DNA of 64,000 nt from Bifidobacterium vansinderenii (lineage in GTDB: Bacteria; Actinomycetota; Actinomycetes; Actinomycetales; Bifidobacteriaceae): positions 62,061 to 126,060 of the forward strand of contig NZ_NEWD01000002.1 in assembly GCF_002234915.1 (NCBI RefSeq), written 5' to 3'. A program made the translations under genes and the position numbers. The notes under the pieces were generated by a model. It was given only the letters and a program-made list of their open reading frames with translations, ran no database searches and was not told the origin of the DNA. Shown one piece after another: positions 6,275 through 62,173 of this stretch (its first letter is position 1; every line of letters starts with the position of its first letter).

Positions 6275-7243
6275 ATGTCGCTCACCCTGGCCGAATCGGC
6301 CAAACTGTCCACCGACGCCCTGCAGCGCGGCGTACTCGAAACGTTCGTGCAGGAAAGCCCCGTGCTCGACCGCATCCCGTTCCTGAGCATCGAGGGCAAC
6401 TCCTACGCGTACAACGAGGAGGCCACCCTGCCCGGCGTCGCGTTCCGCAACGTGAACGAGGCATACGCGGAATCCACCGGCACCGTCAACCAGAAGAGCG
6501 AGAAGCTCGTCATCCTGGGCGGCGACGCCGACGTGGACCGCTTCATCCAGCAGACCCGCTCCAACCTCAACGACCAGCGTGCCACCCAGACCGCCATGAA
6601 GGTCAAGGCGATCTCCTACAAGTTCCAGCAGACGTTCTTCAACGGCGACACCGCCACCGACGCGAAGAGCTTCGACGGTCTGCGCAAGCGACTGACCGGC
6701 AACCAGGTCATCAGCCCCGCCGCCGGAGGACTGAAGGTCCTGGGCAACGGCGGCACCGACGTGCACGCGTTCCTCGACAAGCTCGACGAGCTGCTCGCCG
6801 CGGTCAACGGCATCGGCCCGTCCAACGGCGCGATCTACATGAACCGCACGATCATGGGCAGGTTCCGCTCCGCGCTGCGCCACATCGGCTACGACACCAC
6901 CCTCCAGCAGGACATCACCGGCAAGCGCACCCTCATGTGGAACGGCATCCCCGTGCTCGACGCCGGCACCAACACCGACGGCAGCATGGTCCTCGCCCAG
7001 AACGAGACCTTCGGCACCGGCGACACCGCGCCCAAGAACACGTCCAGCATCTACGCGGTCAAGTTCGGCGGCGACGAGGGAGACCAGGCCGTCACCGGCC
7101 TGACCAACGGAGGCGTCATGGTCGAGGACCTCGGCCAGCTGCAGGAGAAGCCCGCCTACCGCACCCGCGTCGAGTTCTACTGCGGCCTCGGCGTGTTCGG
7201 AGGCAAGGCCGCCGCACGCCTGAACGGAGTGCTCAATGCCTAA
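6275..7243 (+). CDS. Major capsid protein (HK97-fold)
   Basis: At 322 aa, placed straight after the scaffold gene with a strong GAAAGGAAA ribosome site, this is the main shell protein. The sequence shows an N-terminal arm (LAESAKLSTDALQRGVLETF), an extended E-loop-like strand region, and A-domain features such as a GAIYMNRTIMGRFRSALR helix and the TLMWNGIPVLDAG strand, with a short C-terminal beta region ending AARLNGVLNA. There is no protease gene nearby, so maturation may be protease-free. The stop overlaps the next gene by eight bases. Confidence 0.92.
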   Translation: MSLTLAESAKLSTDALQRGVLETFVQESPVLDRIPFLSIEGNSYAYNEEATLPGVAFRNVNEAYAESTGTVNQKSEKLVILGGDADVDRFIQQTRSNLNDQRATQTAMKVKAISYKFQQTFFNGDTATDAKSFDGLRKRLTGNQVISPAAGGLKVLGNGGTDVHAFLDKLDELLAAVNGIGPSNGAIYMNRTIMGRFRSALRHIGYDTTLQQDITGKRTLMWNGIPVLDAGTNTDGSMVLAQNETFGTGDTAPKNTSSIYAVKFGGDEGDQAVTGLTNGGVMVEDLGQLQEKPAYRTRVEFYCGLGVFGGKAAARLNGVLNA

Positions 7244-8420: not shown

Positions 8421-8806
8421 CCCCCGCGCTCACCGGCGTCGACCCGTCCGACATGATCCTCGACGGGCTCTCCGGCGCTCTGCCAGGCATCAGGTTCGGC
8501 TGGGACATGCCCGACGGCCTGCAGGCGAAGACGCTGCTCACCCTGGATCCGGGGGCCATGCCCACGCCCGCATCCCAGTACATGACGCTCACATTCAGCT
8601 GTTACGCGTTCCAGGCGGACGGTACCGCCGACACGCCGACGGCCATGCGAATGTTCCGTCAGTGCGCCCGATGGCTGCTTGCCCACCGCAAGACCGGCCC
8701 TCTCGTCGACGCCTCCCTGCAGGCCGGCCCCACCATCAACCACGACACCCGGCTGGGCGTCGACTACGCGTACGGGGCGGTCCTGCTCACCGTCGCCGCA
8801 CGATAA
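8417..8806 (+). CDS. Tail terminator / completion protein
   Basis: The 129-residue protein lies immediately before the major tail protein, the usual place of the tail terminator that caps the tube and joins the head. The pattern of alternating strands and helices (PTASQYMTLTFSCYAFQ-type strand, FRQCARWLLAHR helix, YAYGAVLLTVAAR final strand) agrees with the ferredoxin-like fold of that family. The gene starts inside the previous stop (ATGA) and ends 21 bases before the tail tube gene. Confidence 0.72.
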   Translation: MTPALTGVDPSDMILDGLSGALPGIRFGWDMPDGLQAKTLLTLDPGAMPTPASQYMTLTFSCYAFQADGTADTPTAMRMFRQCARWLLAHRKTGPLVDASLQAGPTINHDTRLGVDYAYGAVLLTVAAR

Positions 8807-8827: not shown

Positions 8828-9430
8828 ATGGCAACCAGTCTGGAGGCGCAGCTGCTCGCGGCCGGCGCCGCCGGCCTCGACTTCGTGTCCACCGGCAACA
8901 ACAGCGACCTCGTCAAGCTCATCAAGGAGGCCGCGATCTACAAGTTCGACGTGAACGAGACGCTCACGTTTGGACCGAACTGGCGTCCCGCCGACGGCAA
9001 GGACCCGTTCGGCTACTTCTCCGAGGACGGCATCGTCATCCACCCCGAATCCGGCGACAGCAACGACTTCAAGGCCCACAACGGCAACGTCGTCATCTCG
9101 CAGAGCTCCGGCGGCTACTGGACCATCCAGTTCACCGGCCTCGAGTCCAAGAAGGAGGTCGTCGAGACCTACTTCGACGCCACCATCGGAGAGGACGGCG
9201 GCCTGACCATCAGCTCGGCCGAATGCAACCGGATCAGCCAGTACGTCGTCGCCGGCCTCACCCAGAGCGAGGACCTCATCCTCCTGCACGTCCCCAAGGC
9301 CAAGGTCAACGAGCGCGAGGACATCACCTGGAACGTGAGCAAACTGCAGAACTTCGGCATGACCCTGCGCACCTACAGGGACTCCACGAAATACCCGTAC
9401 TTCATGAAGGCCTACGGCTTCGCAGCCTGA
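8828..9430 (+). CDS. Major tail protein (tail tube)
   Basis: The 200-residue protein has a strong AAAGGAAAA ribosome site, in keeping with high expression. It carries the expected mix of beta strands (TLTFGPNW, VVISQSSGGYWTIQFTGLESKKEVVETYF) and a single helix, and lies directly ahead of the two-frame chaperone genes and tape measure. It would polymerise around the tape measure to make the tube. There is no obvious C-terminal Ig-like decoration domain. Confidence 0.88.
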   Translation: MATSLEAQLLAAGAAGLDFVSTGNNSDLVKLIKEAAIYKFDVNETLTFGPNWRPADGKDPFGYFSEDGIVIHPESGDSNDFKAHNGNVVISQSSGGYWTIQFTGLESKKEVVETYFDATIGEDGGLTISSAECNRISQYVVAGLTQSEDLILLHVPKAKVNEREDITWNVSKLQNFGMTLRTYRDSTKYPYFMKAYGFAA

Positions 9431-10171: not shown

Positions 10172-13100
10172 ATGGCCAAGGATCTGGGAACCTACTACAT
10201 CCTCGTCCAGCCCTCCACCAAGGGGCTGGGCAAGGCCATCGAGGGCAGTCTCGACGACGCCACCAGCAGCGGCGTGCAGAAATCCTCCAGGACGATCCTG
10301 TCCCGCGTCGGCGGCGCGTTCACCAAGGTCGGCAAGATCGGCGTCGGCGCGGTCGCCGGTGTTGCCACCGGGCTCGTCGGTCTGGCGGCCAAGGGCGGCT
10401 TCGACCGCGCCCTGAACATCGAGAACGCGCAGGCCAAGCTCAAGGGCCTCGGTCACGACTCGGAGTCCGTCAGCGAGATCATGAACAACGCCCTCGCCTC
10501 CGTCAAGGGCACCGCGTTCGGTCTCGGCGACGCCGCAACCGTCGCCGCCAGTCTGAGTGCATCGGGCGTCAAAAGCGGCAAGCAGCTGACCGACGTGCTC
10601 AAGACCGTGGCCGACACCGCCCAGATCAGCGGCCGCGAACTGACGGACGTGGGCACGATCTTCGGATCCGTGGCCGCGCGCGGCAAGCTCCAGGGCGACG
10701 ACATGCTCCAGCTGATGAGCTCGGGCATCCCGGTGCTGCAGATGCTCGCCAACCATCTGGGCACCACGTCCGAGGCCGTCAGCGACATGGTGAGCGCCGG
10801 CGAGATCGATTTCCAGACCTTCGCCGACGCCATGCAGGAGGGGCTCGGCGGCGCCGCCCAAAGCGCCGGCACCACGTTCACCGGCGCCCTCGCCAACGTC
10901 AAGGCCGCCTTGAGCCGTCTCGGCGAGACCGCCGCCACGCCCGTGCTCAACGGACTGCGAGACCTGTTCAACCAGCTCATCCCCGTCATCGACCAGTTCG
11001 CCGCCACCGCCGAACCCGCACTCAAGGCGTTCGGCGACATCCTCGGCACCACGCTCGCCCAGGCGGTGCCCACCGCCAACAGCCTCCTGCAGCAGCTGCA
11101 GGGCACGCTCCAGTGGTACGAGGAGCACGGCGCGCCCATCAGCGCGGCGCTCATGGCCATCGCCGCGGGGTTCCTCGCGGTCAAGGGCTACCAGACCCTC
11201 AACGGCGGGCTCACGGCACTGACCAGGACCATGGACGCGGTCGCCTCGGGCGCCCAGTCGGCGGGCAGGGCCCTGCTGCTCATGCAGGATCTCGGCGGCC
11301 CGGCAGCGGCGCTCCGGACCTACGCGGGCAGCCTCACCCTAGTCGCCAACGCGCAGAAGGCGCTCTCCAGCGGCCAGGCCATGTTCACCGCGATCAAGGG
11401 AGCCGCCACGGGATTCGGCGCGGCGCTGTCCGGCACGATCGGCGTGATGGGCATGGTCGGCATCGGCGTCGCCGCGGTCGTCGCCGCCATGGCCCTGTTC
11501 TTCACCCAGACCGAGACCGGACGAGCGGCATGGCAGTCGTTCATGCAGTTCCTCCAGCCGCTCTGGCAGCAGGTGCAGGCGGCGTGGCAGGCCGCCCTGC
11601 CGGTCCTCCAGTCGCTCATGCAGTCGATCGGGAACACGATCTCCAACGTCGTCTCGACGGTGGGACCGGTCCTGTCCTCCCTCGCGTCCAGCATCGGCCC
11701 GCTGCTCTCCTCGATCGCCTCGGGGATGGCGGACCGGTTCCAGACCATCGTCGGCGTGGTCGGTTCCGTGCTGCAGCAGATCGGGCCGACGCTGGGGCAG
11801 ATCGGCGGGCAGATGGCCGACGCGTTCGCCACGCTCGCCCAGGCCTCGATGCCCGTGCTGGAATCCCTGGCGGGACTGCTGTCCACGATCCTGCAGCCGA
11901 TCATCGCGCAGCTGCCGGCACTGTCCGACGCGTTCGCCCAGCTCGGGCAGGCGTTCGCCCAGGCCGGCGCGGATCTCGCCCCGGTCATGGCCGACATGAT
12001 GACGCAGATCGGCGACGCGCTGGCACAGCTCTCCCCGGTCATCGCCGAACTCGTCACCGCGTTCGCGCAGCTCGGTCCGGCGCTGCTCACCCCGCTCATC
12101 GCACTGGCATCCACGCTCATGTCCGCGCTGGCCCCCGTGATCACGATGGTCGCCGGACTGGCCGCGCAGATCCTGCCCGTGATCATGCAGCTCGCCACCA
12201 CGCTGGTCAGCGCGCTCGTGCCGGTCATCACCACGATCATCAGCCTAGCCGCGCAGATCCTGCCGGTCATCGCCCAGATCCTGCCGGTCATCGCCCAACT
12301 GGTCTCCATGCTCGTGGGCACGCTCGTCCCCGTCGTCGTGCAGCTGGCGGCCACGCTGGTCAGCGCGCTGGTACCGGTCATCACGCTGATCGTGTCCGCG
12401 ATCGCCGCGTTCCTGCCCGTCGTGGCCACCCTCGTCACCACGCTGGTGAGTCTGCTGATCCCCGTGATCACCGCCATCGTCAACGTCATCACCGCCATGG
12501 TGCCGGTCATCACGGCGGTCGTGTCCGCGATCATCGGCGTGGTCACCCCCGTGATCACCACGATCATCGGCGTCATCCAGAGCGTGGTCACCGTGCTCAC
12601 CGGCGTGATCACGTTCCTCACCGGCGTGTTCACCGGCAACTGGAGTCAGGCGTGGGACGGCATCAAACAGGTGTTCTCCGGCGTATGGCAGGCCATCAAG
12701 AGCATCCTGTCCGGCGCATGGAACACGGTGCAGGCGCTTATCCGCGGCGGTCTGACCGTCATCACCAGCCTGTGGAACGCGGCGTGGAACGGACTGTCCG
12801 GCGCGTTCAGCGCGATCTGGAACGGCATCAAGACCGCCGCCAGCAGCGGCGTGAACGCCGTCGTGAGCGTGATCACCGGCATCAAGGACAAGATCACCGG
12901 CGCGTTCGCGAACGCCGGAAGCTGGCTCGTCAACGCCGGCAGCAACATCGTCAACGGTCTGGTCGACGGCATCAAGGGCGCCGTGAGCAAGGTCGTCGAG
13001 GCCGCCAAGAGCGTCGCCGACAGCGCCATCAACGCCGCCAAGAACGCGCTCGGCATCCACTCGCCGTCCCGAGTGTTCCGCGACCAGATCGGCCTGATGA

Positions 13101-13363
13101 TCGGCGCCGGCATGGGGCAGGGCGTGAGCATGTCACGCGGGCTCGTGGAACGGTCCCTCGACGAGATGACCGCCAAGCTCCAGTCCGGCATCGAACCGCT
13201 GGTCGTGCCAGTGACCGCGCTGGCCACGACCGGAGGCAACGGCACGACCAGCGTCGTGCAGAACTTCACCACGAAGGTGGTGCGCGCCGACAGCGACCTG
13301 CACGTCGCCGCCAGCATCATCCACCGCAACGCGGCAAGGGAGGCGAGGCTGATGCTCGCATGA
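10172..13363 (+). CDS. Tape measure protein
   Basis: At 1063 aa it is the longest tail gene apart from the fibre. The N-terminal ~280 residues match the TP901-type tape measure core, with GRELTDVGTIFGSVAARGKLQGDDMLQLMSSG spread over positions ~155-190. The middle (about 640-820) is an extended hydrophobic stretch of repeated ALVPVIT/ILPVIAQ/TLVTTLV units that may form membrane-active helices for DNA delivery. The C-terminal region has repeated WNGIKT/WNAAWNG units and ends with GIHSPSRVF, a motif common to Gram-positive phage tape measures. Start at a GGAGGGAGC site. Its length sets tail length. Confidence 0.95.
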   Translation: MAKDLGTYYILVQPSTKGLGKAIEGSLDDATSSGVQKSSRTILSRVGGAFTKVGKIGVGAVAGVATGLVGLAAKGGFDRALNIENAQAKLKGLGHDSESVSEIMNNALASVKGTAFGLGDAATVAASLSASGVKSGKQLTDVLKTVADTAQISGRELTDVGTIFGSVAARGKLQGDDMLQLMSSGIPVLQMLANHLGTTSEAVSDMVSAGEIDFQTFADAMQEGLGGAAQSAGTTFTGALANVKAALSRLGETAATPVLNGLRDLFNQLIPVIDQFAATAEPALKAFGDILGTTLAQAVPTANSLLQQLQGTLQWYEEHGAPISAALMAIAAGFLAVKGYQTLNGGLTALTRTMDAVASGAQSAGRALLLMQDLGGPAAALRTYAGSLTLVANAQKALSSGQAMFTAIKGAATGFGAALSGTIGVMGMVGIGVAAVVAAMALFFTQTETGRAAWQSFMQFLQPLWQQVQAAWQAALPVLQSLMQSIGNTISNVVSTVGPVLSSLASSIGPLLSSIASGMADRFQTIVGVVGSVLQQIGPTLGQIGGQMADAFATLAQASMPVLESLAGLLSTILQPIIAQLPALSDAFAQLGQAFAQAGADLAPVMADMMTQIGDALAQLSPVIAELVTAFAQLGPALLTPLIALASTLMSALAPVITMVAGLAAQILPVIMQLATTLVSALVPVITTIISLAAQILPVIAQILPVIAQLVSMLVGTLVPVVVQLAATLVSALVPVITLIVSAIAAFLPVVATLVTTLVSLLIPVITAIVNVITAMVPVITAVVSAIIGVVTPVITTIIGVIQSVVTVLTGVITFLTGVFTGNWSQAWDGIKQVFSGVWQAIKSILSGAWNTVQALIRGGLTVITSLWNAAWNGLSGAFSAIWNGIKTAASSGVNAVVSVITGIKDKITGAFANAGSWLVNAGSNIVNGLVDGIKGAVSKVVEAAKSVADSAINAAKNALGIHSPSRVFRDQIGLMIGAGMGQGVSMSRGLVERSLDEMTAKLQSGIEPLVVPVTALATTGGNGTTSVVQNFTTKVVRADSDLHVAASIIHRNAAREARLMLA

Positions 13364-16350: not shown

Positions 16351-19300
16351 ATGGCGGAACACTACCTATTGAATCCAGACCCCGACGATCTGGCCCTGTC
16401 GGTCGCCCAACGCGCCCTGTTGGAGGCACGCAGCCAGCAGACCATGAGGGCGGGCAGCATCTGGGTGCCCAACGGCGACGGCAGCGGCGCGGGCACCATG
16501 ATCGGACCGCTCGCGGGAGGCCAGGGCATGTCCGACTGGGTGGGCGACACCACCGTCCCGCCCCGGCCGACCGGACTGGGCGCGACGAGCACGATGGGCA
16601 TCGTGGCGGTCACGTGGGACGGGCGTCTGGAGGAGGAGACGCCACCGGATTTCGACTGCATCGAGATCCGCATCACCCTGCCCGACTCGACCGTGCAGAC
16701 GCTAGGCCGCATGAGTGCGGCCGGCGAGCTCACGTCCGGCAGCCTCACCCCCGGCCAGAAGGTCACCGTCACCGCCCGCTCCTACGACCGCGCCCACGCC
16801 GTGGATGGCTCGACCGCGCCCAACGTGAGCGCGGACTCGGACCCGATCGGCGTGACCGTCAGCAGCGCGATCGACGACGCCGAGTTCGACCGGATCAACC
16901 AGGACCTGCAGGACGCGCTCGACCAGATGCACGACCTGAGCCAGACCGTCACCAGCATCGACGGCAAGACCACCGTCTCCGGCAGCGCGCCCACCACGGC
17001 CGACGCCAATGGCAAGCCCGAAGGCGCCATGTGGACCCAGATCGACAGCACCGGCAAGGTGCTCGGCATGTGGGTGCTCCGCAACGGCACGTGGATCAAA
17101 ACCAGCTCCGACGCGACGATCCCGGACGGCATATTCGACGACATCAACAACCGGCTGGACGAGGCCGAAAAGGACCTCACCGACCTGTCCAAGACGGTCA
17201 CCTCGATCGACGGGAAGACCACGGTGTCAGGCAAGGCCCCCACCACGGAGGATGCGAAGACCCACCCCGAGGGCGCCATGTGGACCCAGATCGACAGTAC
17301 CGGCAAGGTGCTCGGCATGTGGGTGCTCAGGAACGGCGCATGGGTCAAGACGTCGTCCGACGTGACCATCCCCGACAGCGCGTTCGACGAGGTGAACAAG
17401 CGGATCGACCAGGCCATCAAGGACATGGACGATCTGGGCAAGACCGTCACCAGCATCGACGGGAAGACCACGGTCTCCGGCAGCGCGCCCACCACGGCCG
17501 ACGCCAAGGGCAGGCCCGAGGGCGCCATGTGGACCCAGATCGACAGTACCGGCAAGGTGCTCGGCATGTGGGTGCTCCGCAACGGCACGTGGCTCAAGAC
17601 GTCGTCCGACGTGGAGATCCCGGACGGCGCGTTCGACGACATCAACAACCGGTTGGACGAGGCCGAGAAGGACCTCACCGACCTGTCCAAGACCGTCACC
17701 AGCATTGACGGAAAATCCACCGTCTCCGGCAAGGCCCCCACCACGGCCGACGCCACGGGCAGGCCCGAGGGCGCCATGTGGGTGCAATTGGGAGCCACGG
17801 GCCAGCCACTGGGCCGCTGGTACCTGCACGACGGCGCGTGGATCGAGGAGAAGGCCGGACTGTCGGAACTGCCCTCGTGGGTGCGCACCGACATCGACCA
17901 GGCGCTCGCCCAGGCCAAGGACGCCAAGACCACCGCGGACGGCAAGAACCGAATATTCGCCCAGACGACGGAGCCGACCCATACGGGCCGTGTGAACGGC
18001 GACCTGTGGAGGAAGCTCGACGCATCCGGGAACATCATCGGCGAATACGTATGGAACGGCACCGTATTCGTCGCTCATGCGATCACGGCCGACAGCGTCC
18101 TGCTGCCCGGCAGCGCGACCGGCTCGACCCTGATCAAACCCGGGTCCATCACCGTGGGCACGATCCACATCGGATCCGGCGAGATCCTCACCGAACTCCT
18201 CAAGGCGCGCAAGATCACCACGTCCGACATCAGCACCGCGGGACTCGACGCCGGGGTCATCACCACGGGATACCTGAGCGCCGCCCGCATCAAGGCCGGC
18301 AGCCTCGACGCGTCACAGGTGCTCGTCAAGGGGTCGGTCGGCAGCGTGCTGATCGCCGACGGCGCCATCACCTCCAAGAACATCAGCATCGGCAACGGCG
18401 AGATCCTCACCGAACTCCTCAAAGCCAGAAAGATCACCACGTCCGACATCAGCACCGCCGGACTGGATGCGGGTGTCATCACCTCGGGCTACATCAGCGC
18501 GGCGCGCATCAAGGCCGGCAGCCTCGACGCCTCTCAGGTGCTGGTGCCCGGCAGTGTGGACGGCGGCGTGCTCATCAAGGACGGCACGATCACCGCCAAG
18601 AACATCAAGATCGGCAACGGCGAGATCCTCACCGAACTCCTCAAGGCGCGCAAGATCACCAGCACGGACATCAGCACCGCGGGACTCGACGCGGGCGTGA
18701 TCAAGTCCGGCTACATCAACGCCGCCCGCATCCAAGCCGGATCACTGGACGCAAGCAAGGTCCTCGTCAAGGGGTCGGTCGGCAGCGTGCTGATCGCCGA
18801 CGGCGCCATCACCGCCAAGAACATCAGCATCGGCAACGGCGAGATCCTCACCGAACTCCTCAAGGCGCGCAAGATCACCACCGGGGACATCACGGCCGAC
18901 GGACTGGACGCCGGCGTGATCACCACCGGCTACCTGAGCGCCGCCAGAATCAAGGCCGGCTCATTGGACGCCTCTCAGGTGCTGGTGCCCGGCTCGATCG
19001 ACGGCGGCGTGCTCATCAAGGACGGCACGATCACCGCCAAGAACATCAAGATCGGCAACGGCGAGATCCTCACCGAACTCCTCAAGGCGCGCAAGATCGT
19101 GGCGGACGACATCCAGGCGGGCGCGTTCAGCGGCTACACGTTCACCGGCAGCACATTCCAGTCCACGACCTGGGGCACGCCGAAGTCCAACAGCTGGCAG
19201 CTCAACAACCAGCGGCTCGAATGGTGGAACGACGGCGTCAAGACCATCTATTTGGACGGCACCGGCAAGGAAAACCTCCTCACCGGCACGTTCCAGACCG

Positions 19301-20205
19301 GCACCAGCGGCAACCGCGTGGTCCTCAGCCCGGAGTTCACCCAGTTCACCATCGGCGGCAGCGACACCATGTACGGTTCGGGCATCAGCTTTCCCATGTC
19401 CGGCACGTACGCACAGATGCCGTACATCGCCACCGAGGCCAGCACCAGTACGGAGGGCGACGTATCCGCACTCACGTTCAACGGTGGCCGCCGCGACAAC
19501 GGATCCCTCGGCACGGGCCACGGATACGGGGCGTTCGGCCGTCTCGGAATGCGCCGCGACAGCCAGAAGCGCCAGCGCGCGACCGTGTACTTCAACGCGT
19601 GCGCGGACTACGACCACACCAACGACACCGACAAGACCCAACGGGAATGGAACTCCTATCTGAGCCTGCTCGTGCCCGACGAGGAGGACACCATCTCGAC
19701 GCTGGGCGCGAACTCACCGACCCGGTGGGGACGCCACTGGGTCAACGTCTCCCAGGGACAGGCCGGCATGCGCATCGACGACGACAAGTCCGGCGCCTCC
19801 AACTACGCCGACATCCGCGGGGACATCCAGCAGGGCTTCTCCAGTCTCGAGTCCGGCGACGTCAATGGCACCGTCGGAATCCAGGCGAACATCACCAAGG
19901 GATACGTGTACCTCGGCGGATTCCTCGGCGGGTATACCAGCCGTCAGACGTTCCAAACGATCAACTGGCTCGCCTGGGGGCAGGGCATGGCCGCCGGACA
20001 GACCGGCTCCGTCGTCTGGACATGGGATCCGCCGAAGTACGGCGGCTACCACGTGCTCGCCCAACCGGTATGCGAATGGAGCGAGGTCCAGGCCCACCCA
20101 AAAAGCGACCACATCTCCAGCCAATGCGAGGTCACGTTCTGGAACGGGGCGGGATCCAGCAGCGACAAGGTGTACTGCAACGGCTACGCATGGCTGCACA
20201 GTTAG
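16351..20205 (+). CDS. Large repeat-containing tail fibre protein
   Basis: A 1284-residue fibre. An N-terminal domain (about 1-195, including a fibronectin-like segment GLGATSTMGIVAVTWDGR) is followed by four 83-residue repeats (each with SIDGKTTVSG...PEGAMWTQIDSTGKVLGMWVLRNG), then five 73/74-residue repeats (each with GEILTELLKARKIT and AGLDAGVI..GY..AARIKAGSLDAS). The final ~350 residues form a beta-rich tip (FSGYTFTGSTFQ, RLEWWNDGVKTIYLDG) that likely contacts the cell. Repeats of this kind build long triple-stranded shafts. Start follows AGGAGGCAC. The near-identical repeats make copy-number change by recombination likely. Confidence 0.85.
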   Translation: MAEHYLLNPDPDDLALSVAQRALLEARSQQTMRAGSIWVPNGDGSGAGTMIGPLAGGQGMSDWVGDTTVPPRPTGLGATSTMGIVAVTWDGRLEEETPPDFDCIEIRITLPDSTVQTLGRMSAAGELTSGSLTPGQKVTVTARSYDRAHAVDGSTAPNVSADSDPIGVTVSSAIDDAEFDRINQDLQDALDQMHDLSQTVTSIDGKTTVSGSAPTTADANGKPEGAMWTQIDSTGKVLGMWVLRNGTWIKTSSDATIPDGIFDDINNRLDEAEKDLTDLSKTVTSIDGKTTVSGKAPTTEDAKTHPEGAMWTQIDSTGKVLGMWVLRNGAWVKTSSDVTIPDSAFDEVNKRIDQAIKDMDDLGKTVTSIDGKTTVSGSAPTTADAKGRPEGAMWTQIDSTGKVLGMWVLRNGTWLKTSSDVEIPDGAFDDINNRLDEAEKDLTDLSKTVTSIDGKSTVSGKAPTTADATGRPEGAMWVQLGATGQPLGRWYLHDGAWIEEKAGLSELPSWVRTDIDQALAQAKDAKTTADGKNRIFAQTTEPTHTGRVNGDLWRKLDASGNIIGEYVWNGTVFVAHAITADSVLLPGSATGSTLIKPGSITVGTIHIGSGEILTELLKARKITTSDISTAGLDAGVITTGYLSAARIKAGSLDASQVLVKGSVGSVLIADGAITSKNISIGNGEILTELLKARKITTSDISTAGLDAGVITSGYISAARIKAGSLDASQVLVPGSVDGGVLIKDGTITAKNIKIGNGEILTELLKARKITSTDISTAGLDAGVIKSGYINAARIQAGSLDASKVLVKGSVGSVLIADGAITAKNISIGNGEILTELLKARKITTGDITADGLDAGVITTGYLSAARIKAGSLDASQVLVPGSIDGGVLIKDGTITAKNIKIGNGEILTELLKARKIVADDIQAGAFSGYTFTGSTFQSTTWGTPKSNSWQLNNQRLEWWNDGVKTIYLDGTGKENLLTGTFQTGTSGNRVVLSPEFTQFTIGGSDTMYGSGISFPMSGTYAQMPYIATEASTSTEGDVSALTFNGGRRDNGSLGTGHGYGAFGRLGMRRDSQKRQRATVYFNACADYDHTNDTDKTQREWNSYLSLLVPDEEDTISTLGANSPTRWGRHWVNVSQGQAGMRIDDDKSGASNYADIRGDIQQGFSSLESGDVNGTVGIQANITKGYVYLGGFLGGYTSRQTFQTINWLAWGQGMAAGQTGSVVWTWDPPKYGGYHVLAQPVCEWSEVQAHPKSDHISSQCEVTFWNGAGSSSDKVYCNGYAWLHS
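16945..17940 (+). repeat. Four tandem 249-bp units in the fibre gene
   Basis: Unit starts at 16,945, 17,194, 17,443 and 17,692 are exactly 249 bases (83 codons) apart. Units 1-3 are highly similar; the fourth diverges in its second half. The frame is kept, so loss or gain of a unit shortens or lengthens the shaft without a frameshift. Confidence 0.92.
18100..19130 (+). repeat. Five tandem 219/222-bp units in the fibre gene
   Basis: The anchor GAGATCCTCACCGAACTCCT occurs at 18,181, 18,400, 18,622, 18,841 and 19,063, with spacing alternating 219 and 222 bases. Alternate units carry either VKGSVGSVLIADGAIT or VPGS.DGGVLIKDGTIT, so the true repeat is a 441-bp pair. All spacings are multiples of three. 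Confidence 0.92.
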
Positions 20206-22085: not shown

Positions 22086-23072
22086 ATGCCAGCAGTCATG
22101 AGCCAACACACCATGCAACCACCCATCATGGGAGGCCACACATGGAACGCCTACATCGCCGGCAAACTCGTCTGGCCCTCGGCCAAGGACACCGTGGTAT
22201 CAATCCGCATCACCACGGCGGCAGGCGGCCAGGTCCCGTCCATGCTCCCGGTCAACGGCAGCGTCCAGCTTGCGGCCGTGGCCACGTACGGGGACGGCCA
22301 TACCGAGACCCATACGACCGAGGGCGTCGCATGGCGTTCGCTGGACACGGGCGTGGCGGTCATGGACGGGGCCACGCTGCGTTGGGTTCACGGCGGCACC
22401 GCGTTGGTGACCGCGACCGTGAACGGGTTCACATCGGCCGCGCTGTCGGTCGCGTGCGTCTGGGCGCCGGAGTCGATCACGGTCAGCCCGAACCCGGTCC
22501 TGGTGCGTGTGGGCGAGAGCGTGGACCTGACCATCCGGGTGCTGCCCGCCGCGGCCAGCCAGGACGTGACCGTGAGCATCGACGACGAGACCATCGCCCA
22601 GGTCGCGAAGACGGCCGGGGGGGGGATTAGCCTGACCGGCCTCGCGCCGGGCGGGACCGCGCTGGCCCTGCAGGCCGGTGACAAGCGTGCCAGGGTGCCG
22701 GTCACGGTGAGCGAGGCCGTGCGACCGAACCTGTGGCCGGCGGGCAGCCTGCCGGTGTCGAACGCCGGGGTGACGTTCTCGGACGCCGGCGGCGGCCGGG
22801 TGCGTGTTGCCGGTTCGAGCACGGGGTACGCGATCTACAGCGCGACCGGCGGGCTCGACGGTGCCGGCGAGTACACGATCGCCGACGGCGAGGGCTTCAA
22901 CGGATCCCTGCTGTACATGCAGGTCAAGGCCGGTGGCACGACAGTGCTCGGCCCCGCCACGAAGACCGCGACCCTGACCGCAGCGCAGGCCGAACGCGTG
23001 CAATGCCAGATCGTGGTCGCGCCCGGCCTGACGGGCGACACGACCGTCACCCCGGTCATCCGCAAACTCTGA
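22086..23072 (+). CDS. Receptor-binding-type tail protein with two Big_2 domains and a G9-run
   Basis: A 328-residue protein. After a short basic start come two bacterial Ig-like (Big_2) domains (about 35-125 and 130-212), then a beta-sandwich of about 110 residues starting NLWPAGSLPVSNAGVTFS, which looks like a carbohydrate-binding module. Codons 178-180 are a GGG run made by nine consecutive Gs (22,617-22,625), followed by ATTAGC. This falls in the second Big_2 domain, replacing a more usual G/D-rich turn. The start has GGAAGGA 9 bases upstream. The next two genes repeat the G-run and the same kind of C-terminal module. Likely the host-contacting protein. Confidence 0.78.
   Translation: MPAVMSQHTMQPPIMGGHTWNAYIAGKLVWPSAKDTVVSIRITTAAGGQVPSMLPVNGSVQLAAVATYGDGHTETHTTEGVAWRSLDTGVAVMDGATLRWVHGGTALVTATVNGFTSAALSVACVWAPESITVSPNPVLVRVGESVDLTIRVLPAAASQDVTVSIDDETIAQVAKTAGGGISLTGLAPGGTALALQAGDKRARVPVTVSEAVRPNLWPAGSLPVSNAGVTFSDAGGGRVRVAGSSTGYAIYSATGGLDGAGEYTIADGEGFNGSLLYMQVKAGGTTVLGPATKTATLTAAQAERVQCQIVVAPGLTGDTTVTPVIRKL
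22617..22634 (+). repeat. G9-run/TTAGC site 1
   Basis: Nine Gs at 22,617-22,625, then ATTAGCC, then GACCGGCCT-like sequence. TTAGC is read as xTT-AGC, the same phase as in sites 2 and 3. Confidence 0.9.
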
Positions 23073-23110
23073 ACCCCGTCACGGGGTTCCCAACATGGAA
23101 GGAGCCCCGC

Positions 23111-23986
23111 ATGGGGACATTGAACGTCACGGGCGTGGCCATGGGCGCCACGAGCCTGAACATCGCATCATCCGGCCAGCCGACGGTCACGGCGAGCGTG
23201 CCTATCACGGTCCACAGTCGCAACCTGCTCGCCTACGGACCCGCCAGCGCGAACGGACTAACCTGTACGGTCAACCAAGACGGCAGTCTGCACGTCAGCG
23301 GACAGACCACGGCGGCCAACCAGGGCGTCAAATGGCGGTACCCCATCCCCGACGACGTCAAGGGCAAAACCGTCACCTACAAGCTCAGCTACGCGCCGGC
23401 GGGCGTGTACTGCTACGTGCAGGCCAGGAACGCGAGCGGCGTGCTGGTCACTCTGCTCTCCTCAGCCGCGACCCAGACCCTGCCCGAGGCGGCCACCGAG
23501 ATCGAATTCAGGGTCGCGACCAACACCACCAACCTGATCGGCGGGGACATTAAGGTGCAGGTGGAACCCGGCGACACCGCAACCACATGGATGAGTCCCG
23601 ACGTCACGAATCTCTCGGGGGGGGGGCTTAGCCTAGCCAGCCTCTGGCCTGCCATCACCGGCGGCACCAAAAACGGGGTCACCCTGACTCCGGGCCCGGA
23701 CGGCTCGTACACGACCGGCGGCACCTGGGACAAATGGACCACGTTCGAATCCACGGTCGAACTCGAAGCCGGGCTCTACACGATCGAGGGATCCGAGGGA
23801 CTGACCTCGCTGTCCTCGTGGGATCTGATCCTGCAGGTCGCGCCCTATCCCAGCGGCGACGCGATCATCAAGCCCGGTACCCCCAGCGCCCGCCTGGACG
23901 CGGGACGCTACCGATGCCAGATCAACATCAACAGCCAGGGCGCGATCGGCCGCAGCGTCACGCCCCGACTTACCAGAATCGACTAA
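23111..23986 (+). CDS. Receptor-binding-type tail protein, second copy, with a G10-run
   Basis: A 291-residue protein. It starts with a shortened Ig-like half domain (GTLNVTGVAMGATSLNIASS, then SVPITV), so the N-terminal part of a Big_2 domain is missing. Two beta-sandwich modules follow, starting NLLAYGPASANGL and SLWPAITGGTKNGVTL; these align in pattern with the C-terminal module of the preceding gene. Ten Gs (23,617-23,626) encode GGG at 170-172 between the modules, followed by CTTAGC. Start ATG at 23,111 is picked because AAGGAGCCC lies just upstream; the open frame further left is a shadow of the previous gene. Its role is inferred from similarity to its neighbours. Confidence 0.76.
   Translation: MGTLNVTGVAMGATSLNIASSGQPTVTASVPITVHSRNLLAYGPASANGLTCTVNQDGSLHVSGQTTAANQGVKWRYPIPDDVKGKTVTYKLSYAPAGVYCYVQARNASGVLVTLLSSAATQTLPEAATEIEFRVATNTTNLIGGDIKVQVEPGDTATTWMSPDVTNLSGGGLSLASLWPAITGGTKNGVTLTPGPDGSYTTGGTWDKWTTFESTVELEAGLYTIEGSEGLTSLSSWDLILQVAPYPSGDAIIKPGTPSARLDAGRYRCQININSQGAIGRSVTPRLTRID
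23617..23634 (+). repeat. G10-run/TTAGC site 2
   Basis: Ten Gs at 23,617-23,626, then CTTAGCC and AGCCAGCCT. It begins exactly 1,000 bases after site 1. Confidence 0.9.
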
Positions 23987-23999
23987 AGGAGCACACCAT

Positions 24000-25223
24000 A
24001 TGAGCAAGAATCGCATCGGGGGGGGGGGACTTAGCGTCACCGGCCTGAAACGAGGCCATACCACCCTCACCCTCACGGCCGGGAACATCACCACGAGCAT
24101 CCCGGTCACGGTGATCGACCCGCAGGCTCCCAGCCTGCCCACGGACCCGTCCGCCGGAGTCAGCCTAGACGAGGCACACGTGAAATACTCCCCGCAGGCC
24201 GTCAAAATGACCGCCGAGGCAGGGAAGACCGTGACCGCGCTCCTGTACCCCGACTACCGAGGGCAGGCCACCCCGCAGCGCGTGGGCCTGTGGGTGTGGG
24301 TGGGCCCCGAGAACCTGCCCAGCAAGGCCAGCGGCTCGACTTACACGGCCGTCAGCCTCGGCCGCGGCAACGGCGGCGGCTCCGGCACTCCGATCATCGG
24401 CACGGACCGGTACAAGGGCCTGTTCCCAGGCTGGAACCTGTGCGTGTTCGATACCCAGGCGTATGCGGTCGGGCTGACCGTCCAATGGAGAAGCGAGACG
24501 GGAGGCTCGATCTGGGTGGACAGCCTCATCGTCGAACCGCCCACCCCGAAGGCGGTCATCGTGTTCACGCATGACGTGGCCCCCGGCCAGGTCACGCAGG
24601 ACATGATCGACATGTACCAGACGCGCGGACTCGTGTTCACGTGGGACCAGTCCAACGACAGTAATTGGACGGCCGATCAGGTCGCTCACCTGCTCGGGGC
24701 CGGCGTCACCGATGGCGGCGTGTACTCCGGTCACCCGGAGGACATCGACTACGACACCGGTGATTGGACCGTGGTGGCCGAACGCATGAAACACGTGCGA
24801 GACATTCCCAGTCTGCCGCGCGCCTCGTACGTCGCCAGCACCAGAAACCAGCTCGGCAAGGCGTATCTGGAGCGCCTGACCGATGACGGGTGGCCGCTCA
24901 TTCGAGGCAACTACGGTGGTGGTCTCGGACTGACCATCGACCCCACGTACCGGAGCGTGCCGACGATCGGATACGAGGAGGCGTCCACGAAACTGGACAC
25001 CTACGTGGACCTCGGCGCCATCATCTGCGTGACCGAACACAAGATCGTGGCCGACGGCCAGGGCAGCGACACCACCCAGATCGAGGTATCCAAGTGGACT
25101 GCCCTGCTCGACAGGGTCAAGACGCTTGTCGACGCAGGCAAGCTCGAATGCCTCACCATGCGCCAACTCGCCCAACGATACGTGCCCGACGCACTACACG
25201 CGTGGGACCAACAAACCAACTGA
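24000..25223 (+). CDS. Receptor-binding-type tail protein with deacetylase-like C-terminus and G11-run at its start
   Basis: A 407-residue protein. Only six residues precede eleven Gs (24,018-24,028), read as GGGG at 7-10, then CTTAGC. The following LSVTGLKRGHTTLTLTAG is the C-terminal half of a Big_2 domain like that in the first gene. A beta module comes next (about 50-180, KVEAGKT-type segment, GLWVWVGPENL), and then a domain resembling polysaccharide deacetylases (AVIVFTHDVAPG, about 182; SGHPEDIDYDTG, about 243; IGYEEAS). Metal-site residues look incomplete, so catalysis is doubtful. AAAGGAGC ribosome site present. G-run slippage would stop translation at once. Confidence 0.75.
   Translation: MSKNRIGGGGLSVTGLKRGHTTLTLTAGNITTSIPVTVIDPQAPSLPTDPSAGVSLDEAHVKYSPQAVKMTAEAGKTVTALLYPDYRGQATPQRVGLWVWVGPENLPSKASGSTYTAVSLGRGNGGGSGTPIIGTDRYKGLFPGWNLCVFDTQAYAVGLTVQWRSETGGSIWVDSLIVEPPTPKAVIVFTHDVAPGQVTQDMIDMYQTRGLVFTWDQSNDSNWTADQVAHLLGAGVTDGGVYSGHPEDIDYDTGDWTVVAERMKHVRDIPSLPRASYVASTRNQLGKAYLERLTDDGWPLIRGNYGGGLGLTIDPTYRSVPTIGYEEASTKLDTYVDLGAIICVTEHKIVADGQGSDTTQIEVSKWTALLDRVKTLVDAGKLECLTMRQLAQRYVPDALHAWDQQTN
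24018..24035 (+). repeat. G11-run/TTAGC site 3
   Basis: Eleven Gs at 24,018-24,028, then ACTTAGCG and CACCGGCCT, seven codons into its gene. It starts 401 bases after site 2. Confidence 0.9.
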
Positions 25224-26759: not shown

Positions 26760-26793
26760 CCGGTCTGCGGGTTCAAGTCCCGCTCCGGACACC
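26760..26793 (+). pseudogene. tRNA 3' fragment (probable attR core), isotype unclear
   Basis: The T arm GCGGG-TTCAAGT-CCCGC and 3' acceptor half TCCGGAC with ACC are present, but no matching D arm or 5' acceptor (GTCCGGA) is found upstream. This is what a prophage leaves at its far end after integrating into a tRNA gene; the intact tRNA would be at the left junction, outside the window. The 3' half is leucine-like, but the evidence is thin. Confidence 0.5.
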
Positions 26794-62032: not shown

Positions 62033-62173
62033 TCCGCTTCCTCCCTGTATTGTCGACAGCTTTGTCTCTTACTGTTCATAATACACGAGATTCACGCAGT
62101 TTTGATCAGTTTTGCACATTTTCTATCAGAAGATGTCAGAGCGTCGGCAAGACGACGTTCCACCCGTCCGCCG

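Follow-up and report, generated by a model that had tools for sequence, protein, structure and literature searches.

The right part of a prophage in Bifidobacterium vansinderenii carries three adjacent genes on the plus strand, here called g1, g2 and g3, each of which contains an uninterrupted run of guanines in its reading frame. The window, meaning the whole 64,000-nucleotide stretch that was analysed, corresponds to positions 62,061–126,060 of contig C12 in a genome of 3.11 Mb and 68 contigs; coordinates refer to the window unless a contig or a related region (L068 and the like) is named. The three genes lie between the tail genes and an endolysin-like gene and are not sortase-dependent pilus genes, and no sortase or pilus family stood above the cut-off among their matches. 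We describe these G tracts and their relatives, and argue that they very probably act as ON/OFF switches for modules displayed on the phage tail.

The first gene, g1 (22086..23072, +), is a tail-tip anchor gene of 328 amino acids (aa) that combines an immunoglobulin (Ig)-like Big_2 domain with a C-terminal beta module. Pfam Big_2 matches aa 129–194 (E 2.4e-8), and among PHROGs the protein matches phrog_215, a structural protein with an Ig domain, and, at aa 221–328, phrog_35108. The first half of the domain (strands 1–5; 22464..22616, +), which we call the socket half, is followed in frame by a G9 tract (22617..22625, +) in the loop between strands 5 and 6, and then by the second half (strands 6–8; 22626..22709, +). 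The tract encodes aa 178–180, inside the Pfam match, and the two sides together form a whole domain. An AlphaFold2 model of the Big_2 stretch (query plus nine rows; mean predicted local distance difference test score, pLDDT, 90.7) shows five strands, the tract in a loop (model residues 52–56) and three further strands. An earlier model of the whole of g1, for which the alignment had set tandem first halves against the second half, gave pLDDT below 50 in Big_2, and a PDB fold search with that first model returned general Ig-type matches only.

The other two are cassette genes. The 291-aa product of g2 (23111..23986, +) begins MGTLNVTG with a stand-alone second half of Big_2 (23120..23212, +), the plug half, which was located with a custom profile, has no G tract before it and gave no Pfam Big_2 match by itself. 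It is followed by beta module 1 (23213..23616, +; putatively sugar-binding, labelled CBM1), an in-frame G10 tract between the modules (23617..23626, +) and beta module 2 (23627..23983, +). PHROGs matches are phrog_35081 at aa 1–183 and phrog_35108 at aa 185–291; automatic annotation may have split these genes, since in PHROGs the modules of g2 are two distinct families of unknown function. The 407-aa product of g3 (24000..25223, +) consists of a six-codon leader, MSKNRI (24000..24017, +), an in-frame G11 tract (24018..24028, +), a stand-alone plug half (24030..24113, +) and a 369-aa C-terminal module. This last module matched no Pfam family, and searches of PDB gave one chance-level match for the whole of g3 (E 0.24) and none with a profile. 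Among isolated phage records, g1 had six partial matches in Listeria and Propionibacterium phages (E 6e-4 to 1e-3), while g2, g3 and a 10.2-kb DNA query had none.

A preliminary description of the locus had reported these three runs at exactly the positions given above, each followed by one or two bases (A, C and AC in g1, g2 and g3, respectively), the word TTAGC read in one phase in all three genes (xTT-AGC), and a stretch ending in ACCGGCCT, GCCAGCCT and ACCGGCCT, respectively; all of this was borne out. It had also seen no comparable runs elsewhere, and these are indeed the only G runs of at least 7 in the 64-kb window, where C runs of at least 7 are absent. In 300 first-order Markov simulations of the window, runs of at least nine Gs averaged 0.47; three or more such runs arose in 3/300 and three within 1.4 kb in 0/300. 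For the whole genome we counted, among those listed, 32 distinct runs of at least eight Gs, nine of which fall in arrays with such modules (three on contig C12, three on C34, two on C20 and one on C56).

Relatives of g2 were found in 15 of the 189 family genomes searched. Relatives of g1 come from Bifidobacterium callimiconis, B. ramosum, B. platyrrhinorum (two) and B. reuteri, five confirmed among 46 pattern stretches of the genome collection. We compared 22 hand-picked regions totalling 361.6 kb, namely the window, three more arrays of the same genome, two from the same GTDB genus and 16 from other family members. G runs of at least 7 number 37 on the gene strand and three on the opposite strand, and the 37 tracts range from G7 to G11. 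By a classing rule of our own, 15 tracts follow a short leader (5–8 codons including the ATG), three lie inside Big_2 and 19 follow beta module 1. By a frame rule of our own, which is a limit counted against the interpretation below, 15 tracts are ON and 22 OFF. All three tracts of the window are ON; without them the count is 12 ON and 22 OFF, near the one third expected under free length drift. Downstream of the tract the frame stays open for 107–408 codons in 36 of 37 cases, the exception being L062 with 21 codons. Length varies between close relatives: two B. platyrrhinorum arrays that are 88.5% alike over 3.1 kb carry G10/G10/G9/G10 and G9/G10/G11/G10. One relative (L156:8924-8945) carries an unstable repeat of another type, (GA)11, where the leader of a cassette gene would otherwise have its G run; it is in frame. 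A scan of the g2 family found eight of 38 rows that read through a stop, and all eight end at residues 174–180, which is the tract.

The bases after the tracts display a second recurring property. In g1 the two wrong frames reach TAG at 22628 and TGA at 22633, in g2 TAG at 23629 and at 23634, and in g3 TAG at 24032 and TGA at 24046. Both wrong frames stop within five codons or fewer at 22 of 36 tracts, as against 1.0% of 4,536 background codon positions taken from the same downstream frames (one of the 37 tracts was omitted, its downstream frame being shorter than 60 codons); median distances to the off-frame stop are 4.5 codons after tracts and 90 in the background. The recurring element is thus a G run with early stops in both other frames and not a fixed word, because TTAGC stands near only five of the 37 tracts whereas off-frame stops recur.

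We consider it very probable that the three G runs are contingency tracts mediating slipped-strand phase variation of display modules. Slipped-strand mispairing in replication would add or remove Gs, and each gene would flip between a full-length and a cut-short product. With its tract OFF, g1 would yield an anchor whose Ig domain is left incomplete, g2 would keep module 1 and drop module 2, and of g3 hardly anything beyond a short leader peptide would be made. A stop in both wrong frames is supplied by the sequence just behind the tract (e.g., TTAGCCTGA), and the OFF product would therefore end cleanly. We infer that slippage occurs within populations at useful rates and that the modules bind the host surface. 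Since the genes appear to encode display modules of a siphophage-type tail, a population of lysogens or phages would be a mixture of displayed sets, and with several adjacent switches at module borders a single prophage genome could give rise to many types of tail.

Several observations, besides our reliance on our own frame rule, weigh against this switching interpretation. Two of the 22 regions (L164 and L165) have no tract. Downstream module pairs, OFF copies included, have ratios of non-synonymous to synonymous substitution (dN/dS) of 0.54–0.79 in all five comparisons; this counts in favour of the switch, but the constraint that it indicates is only weak. No variation in tract length was seen within one strain across assembly records: three records of one B. 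reuteri prophage (L289, L293 and L294) all have G9, and the viral records L037 and L017 are identical to the window's genome, although records of one prophage that agree in this way may go back to the same raw data. Short-read assemblies can also misjudge the length of a homopolymer by one. Related tracts are connected by descent, and their counts are not independent tests. Finally, a g2-type gene of the C34 prophage (L068, 7788–7795) carries an interrupted run, GGTGGGGG, followed by a stop. This resembles a switch lost by decay while OFF, and it follows that not every copy is switchable.

Other explanations account for parts of this pattern. One that we regard as unlikely is that g2, g3 and their relatives are silent cassettes, DNA donors for gene conversion into g1 that are unused as proteins. 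In its favour, the half-domain at the head of the cassettes is the one that would be joined to g1 at the tract, and modules do pass from fused to free arrangements or back. Both the window and L108 (B. callimiconis) have the g3-type C-terminal module as a free part, and L156 has it in one fusion behind a first half, a G9 tract and a second half. The g1-type C-terminal module forms part of a fusion in the window and stands alone in L068, L157 and L158. Donors that are never translated do not, however, sit well with the 15 of 37 tracts that fit an order of ribosome-binding-type sequence, ATG, leader of 5–8 codons and tract, nor with L157, L158, L160, L161 and L163, where the upstream frame ends in a first half and there is no second half to replace.

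The preliminary description had itself favoured an exchange point, with the G-run/TTAGC element as a site where recombination swaps C-terminal modules in frame; such a role would be compatible with slippage. Part of this proposal stood: the three genes are modular, and in-frame swaps between prophages have taken place. The g2 gene of the window is a mosaic of two genes of the C34 prophage in the same genome, open reading frames ORF2 and ORF3, in the order ORF2/ORF3/ORF2. Its first ~105 bp match ORF2 (83–100% per 30-bp bin), the next ~385 bp match ORF3 (73–100%) and the remainder matches ORF2 again (80–100%, last bin 67%). The joints lie at ~23,215 and within ~23,591–23,650, an interval that contains the G10 tract and cannot be narrowed because both parents are alike there. 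Together with the presence of the same g1-type and g3-type C-termini behind different partners, this second joint speaks for the tract as a crossover site.

An active role of the element in crossover is nonetheless quite unlikely. TTAGC lies within 3 nt after the tract in just five of the 37 cases, and it was rejected as a specific site for want of conservation. (GA)11 stands in for the G run in one relative. Two joints, the one at ~23,215 in g2 and a loss of similarity at ~24,113 in g3, both fall at the end of the half-domain, away from the tracts, and similarity around the tracts within the window extends over just 27–99 bp at 68–85% identity. The description had suggested a recombinase further left and had proposed searching related prophages for the same site. 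The sole tyrosine-recombinase match in the prophage is the one beside the left attachment repeat; scans with two Pfam families gave no serine-recombinase match in it and no other invertase or resolvase match. A shufflon was likewise rejected, with no invertase match and no rix repeats. G9 plus TTAGC occurs in 55 viral stretches, of which only L017 and L037 are, by their flanks, of this array type; in the family scan, seven of 189 genomes contained the element, and the matches in other genomes than that of the window seemed to be unrelated. Exchanges have ended up at several module borders, of which the tract region is one, and the recurring signals favour switching over a crossover enzyme. The tract features look like those of contingency switches and are hard to reconcile with a sequence-specific crossover site.

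Slippage need not take place in replication. Runs of G9–G11 can slip at any polymerase, and programmed slippage of RNA polymerase or the ribosome at the G run would yield several products from one DNA length. Stops in both other frames would also suit such a mechanism, and frameshift-like sites exist elsewhere in these phages. We find it very doubtful, however, given that tract length varies among relatives and usually leaves the downstream frame out of phase, and that a GA repeat occupies the same place in one relative. Lastly, although one-base homopolymer errors are common and a glycine in a loop or linker would be harmless, it is scarcely credible that the tracts are neutral glycine linkers with OFF calls produced by assembly errors, in view of the early stops in both wrong frames, the strand bias of 37 to 3, the equal lengths in compared records of one prophage and the GA-repeat substitute.

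Slipped-strand switching, our preferred interpretation, concerns when these modules are made; the distribution of the Big_2 halves concerns how they might be attached. Like g2 and g3, many relatives begin with the last three Big_2 strands alone, as recognised by a profile built from these same sequences. The Pfam Big_2 profile bears out this division only partly: three of four stand-alone first halves match (L290 to position 49, L289 to 50 and L286 to 58 of 79; L160 gave none), and one of five stand-alone second halves matches weakly (g3, positions 52–79 of 79, E 0.16). In L156, where both halves stand in one frame, the match covers positions 4–78 (E 3.7e-13).

First halves at E ≤ 1e-4 occur in 13 of the 22 regions. 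We read them as unfinished in ten (L068, L108, L109, L153, L157, L158, L160, L161, L163 and L159, where the tract is OFF), although in L068 and L109 one of the two first halves is followed by a linker and further domains. In three (the window, L156 and, weakly, L162) we read the first half as continued by a second half. Unfinished first halves end the anchor gene two in tandem in L157 and L158 and three in L161, and in these same regions the stop is closely followed by a leader-tract-second-half cassette, whose ATG lies 5–14 nt beyond the first stop base. The first-half frame of L160 and L163 closes with ATGA, at which a gene begins that we read as a second half on weak custom-profile matches (E 0.9 and 0.2). 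A wider anchor search drew in 54 of the 189 family genomes, mostly with ordinary Ig repeats in long proteins. Full-length g1-type anchors were found at only six loci in five of these genomes, so the tail-tip anchor form is not common. As a separate observation, a gene between an unfinished anchor and its cassettes in B. callimiconis (L108:6942-8206, minus strand) resembles, by eye, a pectin-lyase-type tail spike.

Protein parts encoded separately in some genomes and as a fusion in others often interact. Because the same parts are found in both states here, we give about even chances to the prediction, made from sequence, that free half-domain cassettes dock onto unfinished Ig sockets. Structural proteins would carry the first half as an open socket: the tail-tip anchor and, among the relatives, also the major proteins of head and tail, behind –1 frameshift-like sites. 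Separately translated cassettes, many of them behind G-run switches, would carry the second half as a plug together with different surface modules. The halves would join on the virion and complete the Ig fold, and the displayed set would change by single-base slips with no DNA rearrangement.

The frameshift-like sites were seen at eight first halves whose own frame appeared noise-like upstream, two each in L068, L109, L160 and L163; L160/L163 and L068/L109 are related pairs, and the eight cases are not independent. Relative to a longer upstream frame, every one of them is read in the –1 frame, and the stop of that upstream frame falls within 10 nt of where the first half starts (at L160 8307, a second, shorter upstream frame in the other phase is also listed). 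An in-frame slippery heptamer ends 0–9 nt before that stop in all eight (C CCA AAA in six and G GGA AAA in two). In comparison, among the 529 long open frames of these regions, those eight regions included, 44 have one within 31 nt. The six upstream genes that were scanned are major head proteins and major tail proteins of L068, L109 and L160; the two upstream genes of L163 lie outside the gene-family scan. In two prophages from different genomes (L068:5699-5860 and L109:9128-9283), G GGA AAA sits right at the major tail protein's stop, and the –1 frame holds an Ig first half and further Ig-type domains. At L160:8292-8456, L163 reverse complement 8467–8631, L068:3279-3419 and L109:6715-6882, C CCA AAA stands near the end of the head-protein frame (the L163 gene being unscanned), and the –1 frame holds only a Big_2-type first half. 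An added half domain would be odd without a partner.

The prophage as a whole measures ~39.5 kb, and its right part makes up the left 26.8 kb of the window. Repeat comparison within contig C12 placed the 27-bp right attachment repeat at 26766..26792 (+) and copies of the left repeat at C12:48802-48828 and C12:49280-49306; as the left copies are outside the window, the prophage begins to its left. The tyrosine recombinase (C12:49474-50034) adjoins the left attachment repeat, placed as an integrase would be. Within the window follow the major head protein (6275–7243), the major tail protein (8828–9430), the tape measure protein (10172–13363) and a long tail gene (16351–20205), then g1, g2, g3 and the endolysin-like gene. 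The long tail gene contains several direct repeats of ~270–720 bp at 81–87% identity, which could recombine.

Runs of a similar kind also turned up outside these arrays. In the window's genome a G9 run (G000:C24:31225-31233; L064 reverse complement 3884) near the start of a 1,485-codon frame is possibly phase-variable. The viral contig IMGVR_UViG_3300011977_000007 (L226) has tandem frames of 375 and 386 codons at 6897 and 8110, with leaders MPIINRLPI and MPTINRLPI and G11 tracts, a similar switch logic without Ig half-domains. Another (L170) has three leader-plus-G-run starts within 1 kb (1343, 1873 and 2307), followed by frames of ~21 codons. No Big_2 half was present in the loci with this leader-tract pattern among the viral-contig matches listed.

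Poly-G phase variation in Campylobacter phages is reportedly the subject of a 2021 article by Sorensen et al., said to be in Cell Rep 35:109214. The arrays described here share with phage poly-G systems a tract in the coding frame of a phage tail or surface-module gene, whose length differs among relatives and sets the frame. Campylobacter phages are described as having phase-variable expression of receptor-binding proteins (PMC10579305); phage-encoded G tracts are reportedly tied to these proteins, with length changes that alter expression. The present tracts differ in belonging to bifidobacterial prophages, in often occurring several to an array in adjacent genes, in lying at module borders, and in their early off-frame stops and split Ig domains. 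G-tract slippage is established in the genes of bifidobacterial sortase-dependent pili (Penno et al. 2022, PMC9187656), where, as proposed here, an intragenic G tract switches ON and OFF by replication slippage in the same bacterial group. That system concerns a host pilus gene whereas ours concerns phage structural genes, and the words 'phage' and 'tail' do not occur in the main text of that paper.

The Rin shufflon of bifidobacterial prophages likewise varies receptor-binding modules of the tail, through a tyrosine invertase, 11-bp rix repeats (TTCCCTAACCC) and inverted modules (Mavrich et al. 2018, PMC6109161). Here, in contrast, no dedicated invertase adjoins the modules and none of them is inverted, and the rix repeat had no match at one mismatch or fewer in the window and 19.6 kb to its left (L075). 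Frameshifts add Ig-like or fibronectin type III (FN3) domains to phage tail proteins, as in the extended form of SPP1 gp17.1 (PMC8718954). The frameshift-like sites of the relatives resemble the case of SPP1 gp17.1, where a frameshift gives a fraction of tail subunits a C-terminal Ig-type extension, but SPP1 adds a whole domain, while in several relatives only a first half follows the site. Among open-licence papers, a weak basis for a negative, we found no report of G tracts in bifidobacterial prophage tails or of split phage Ig domains. G-tract switching is thus known both in phages and in bifidobacteria, and the split-domain layer is possibly a new mechanism on top of it. Should the half-domains indeed dock, phages would possess a natural equivalent of the split-protein tags used in the laboratory and would change their surface parts at the level of protein.

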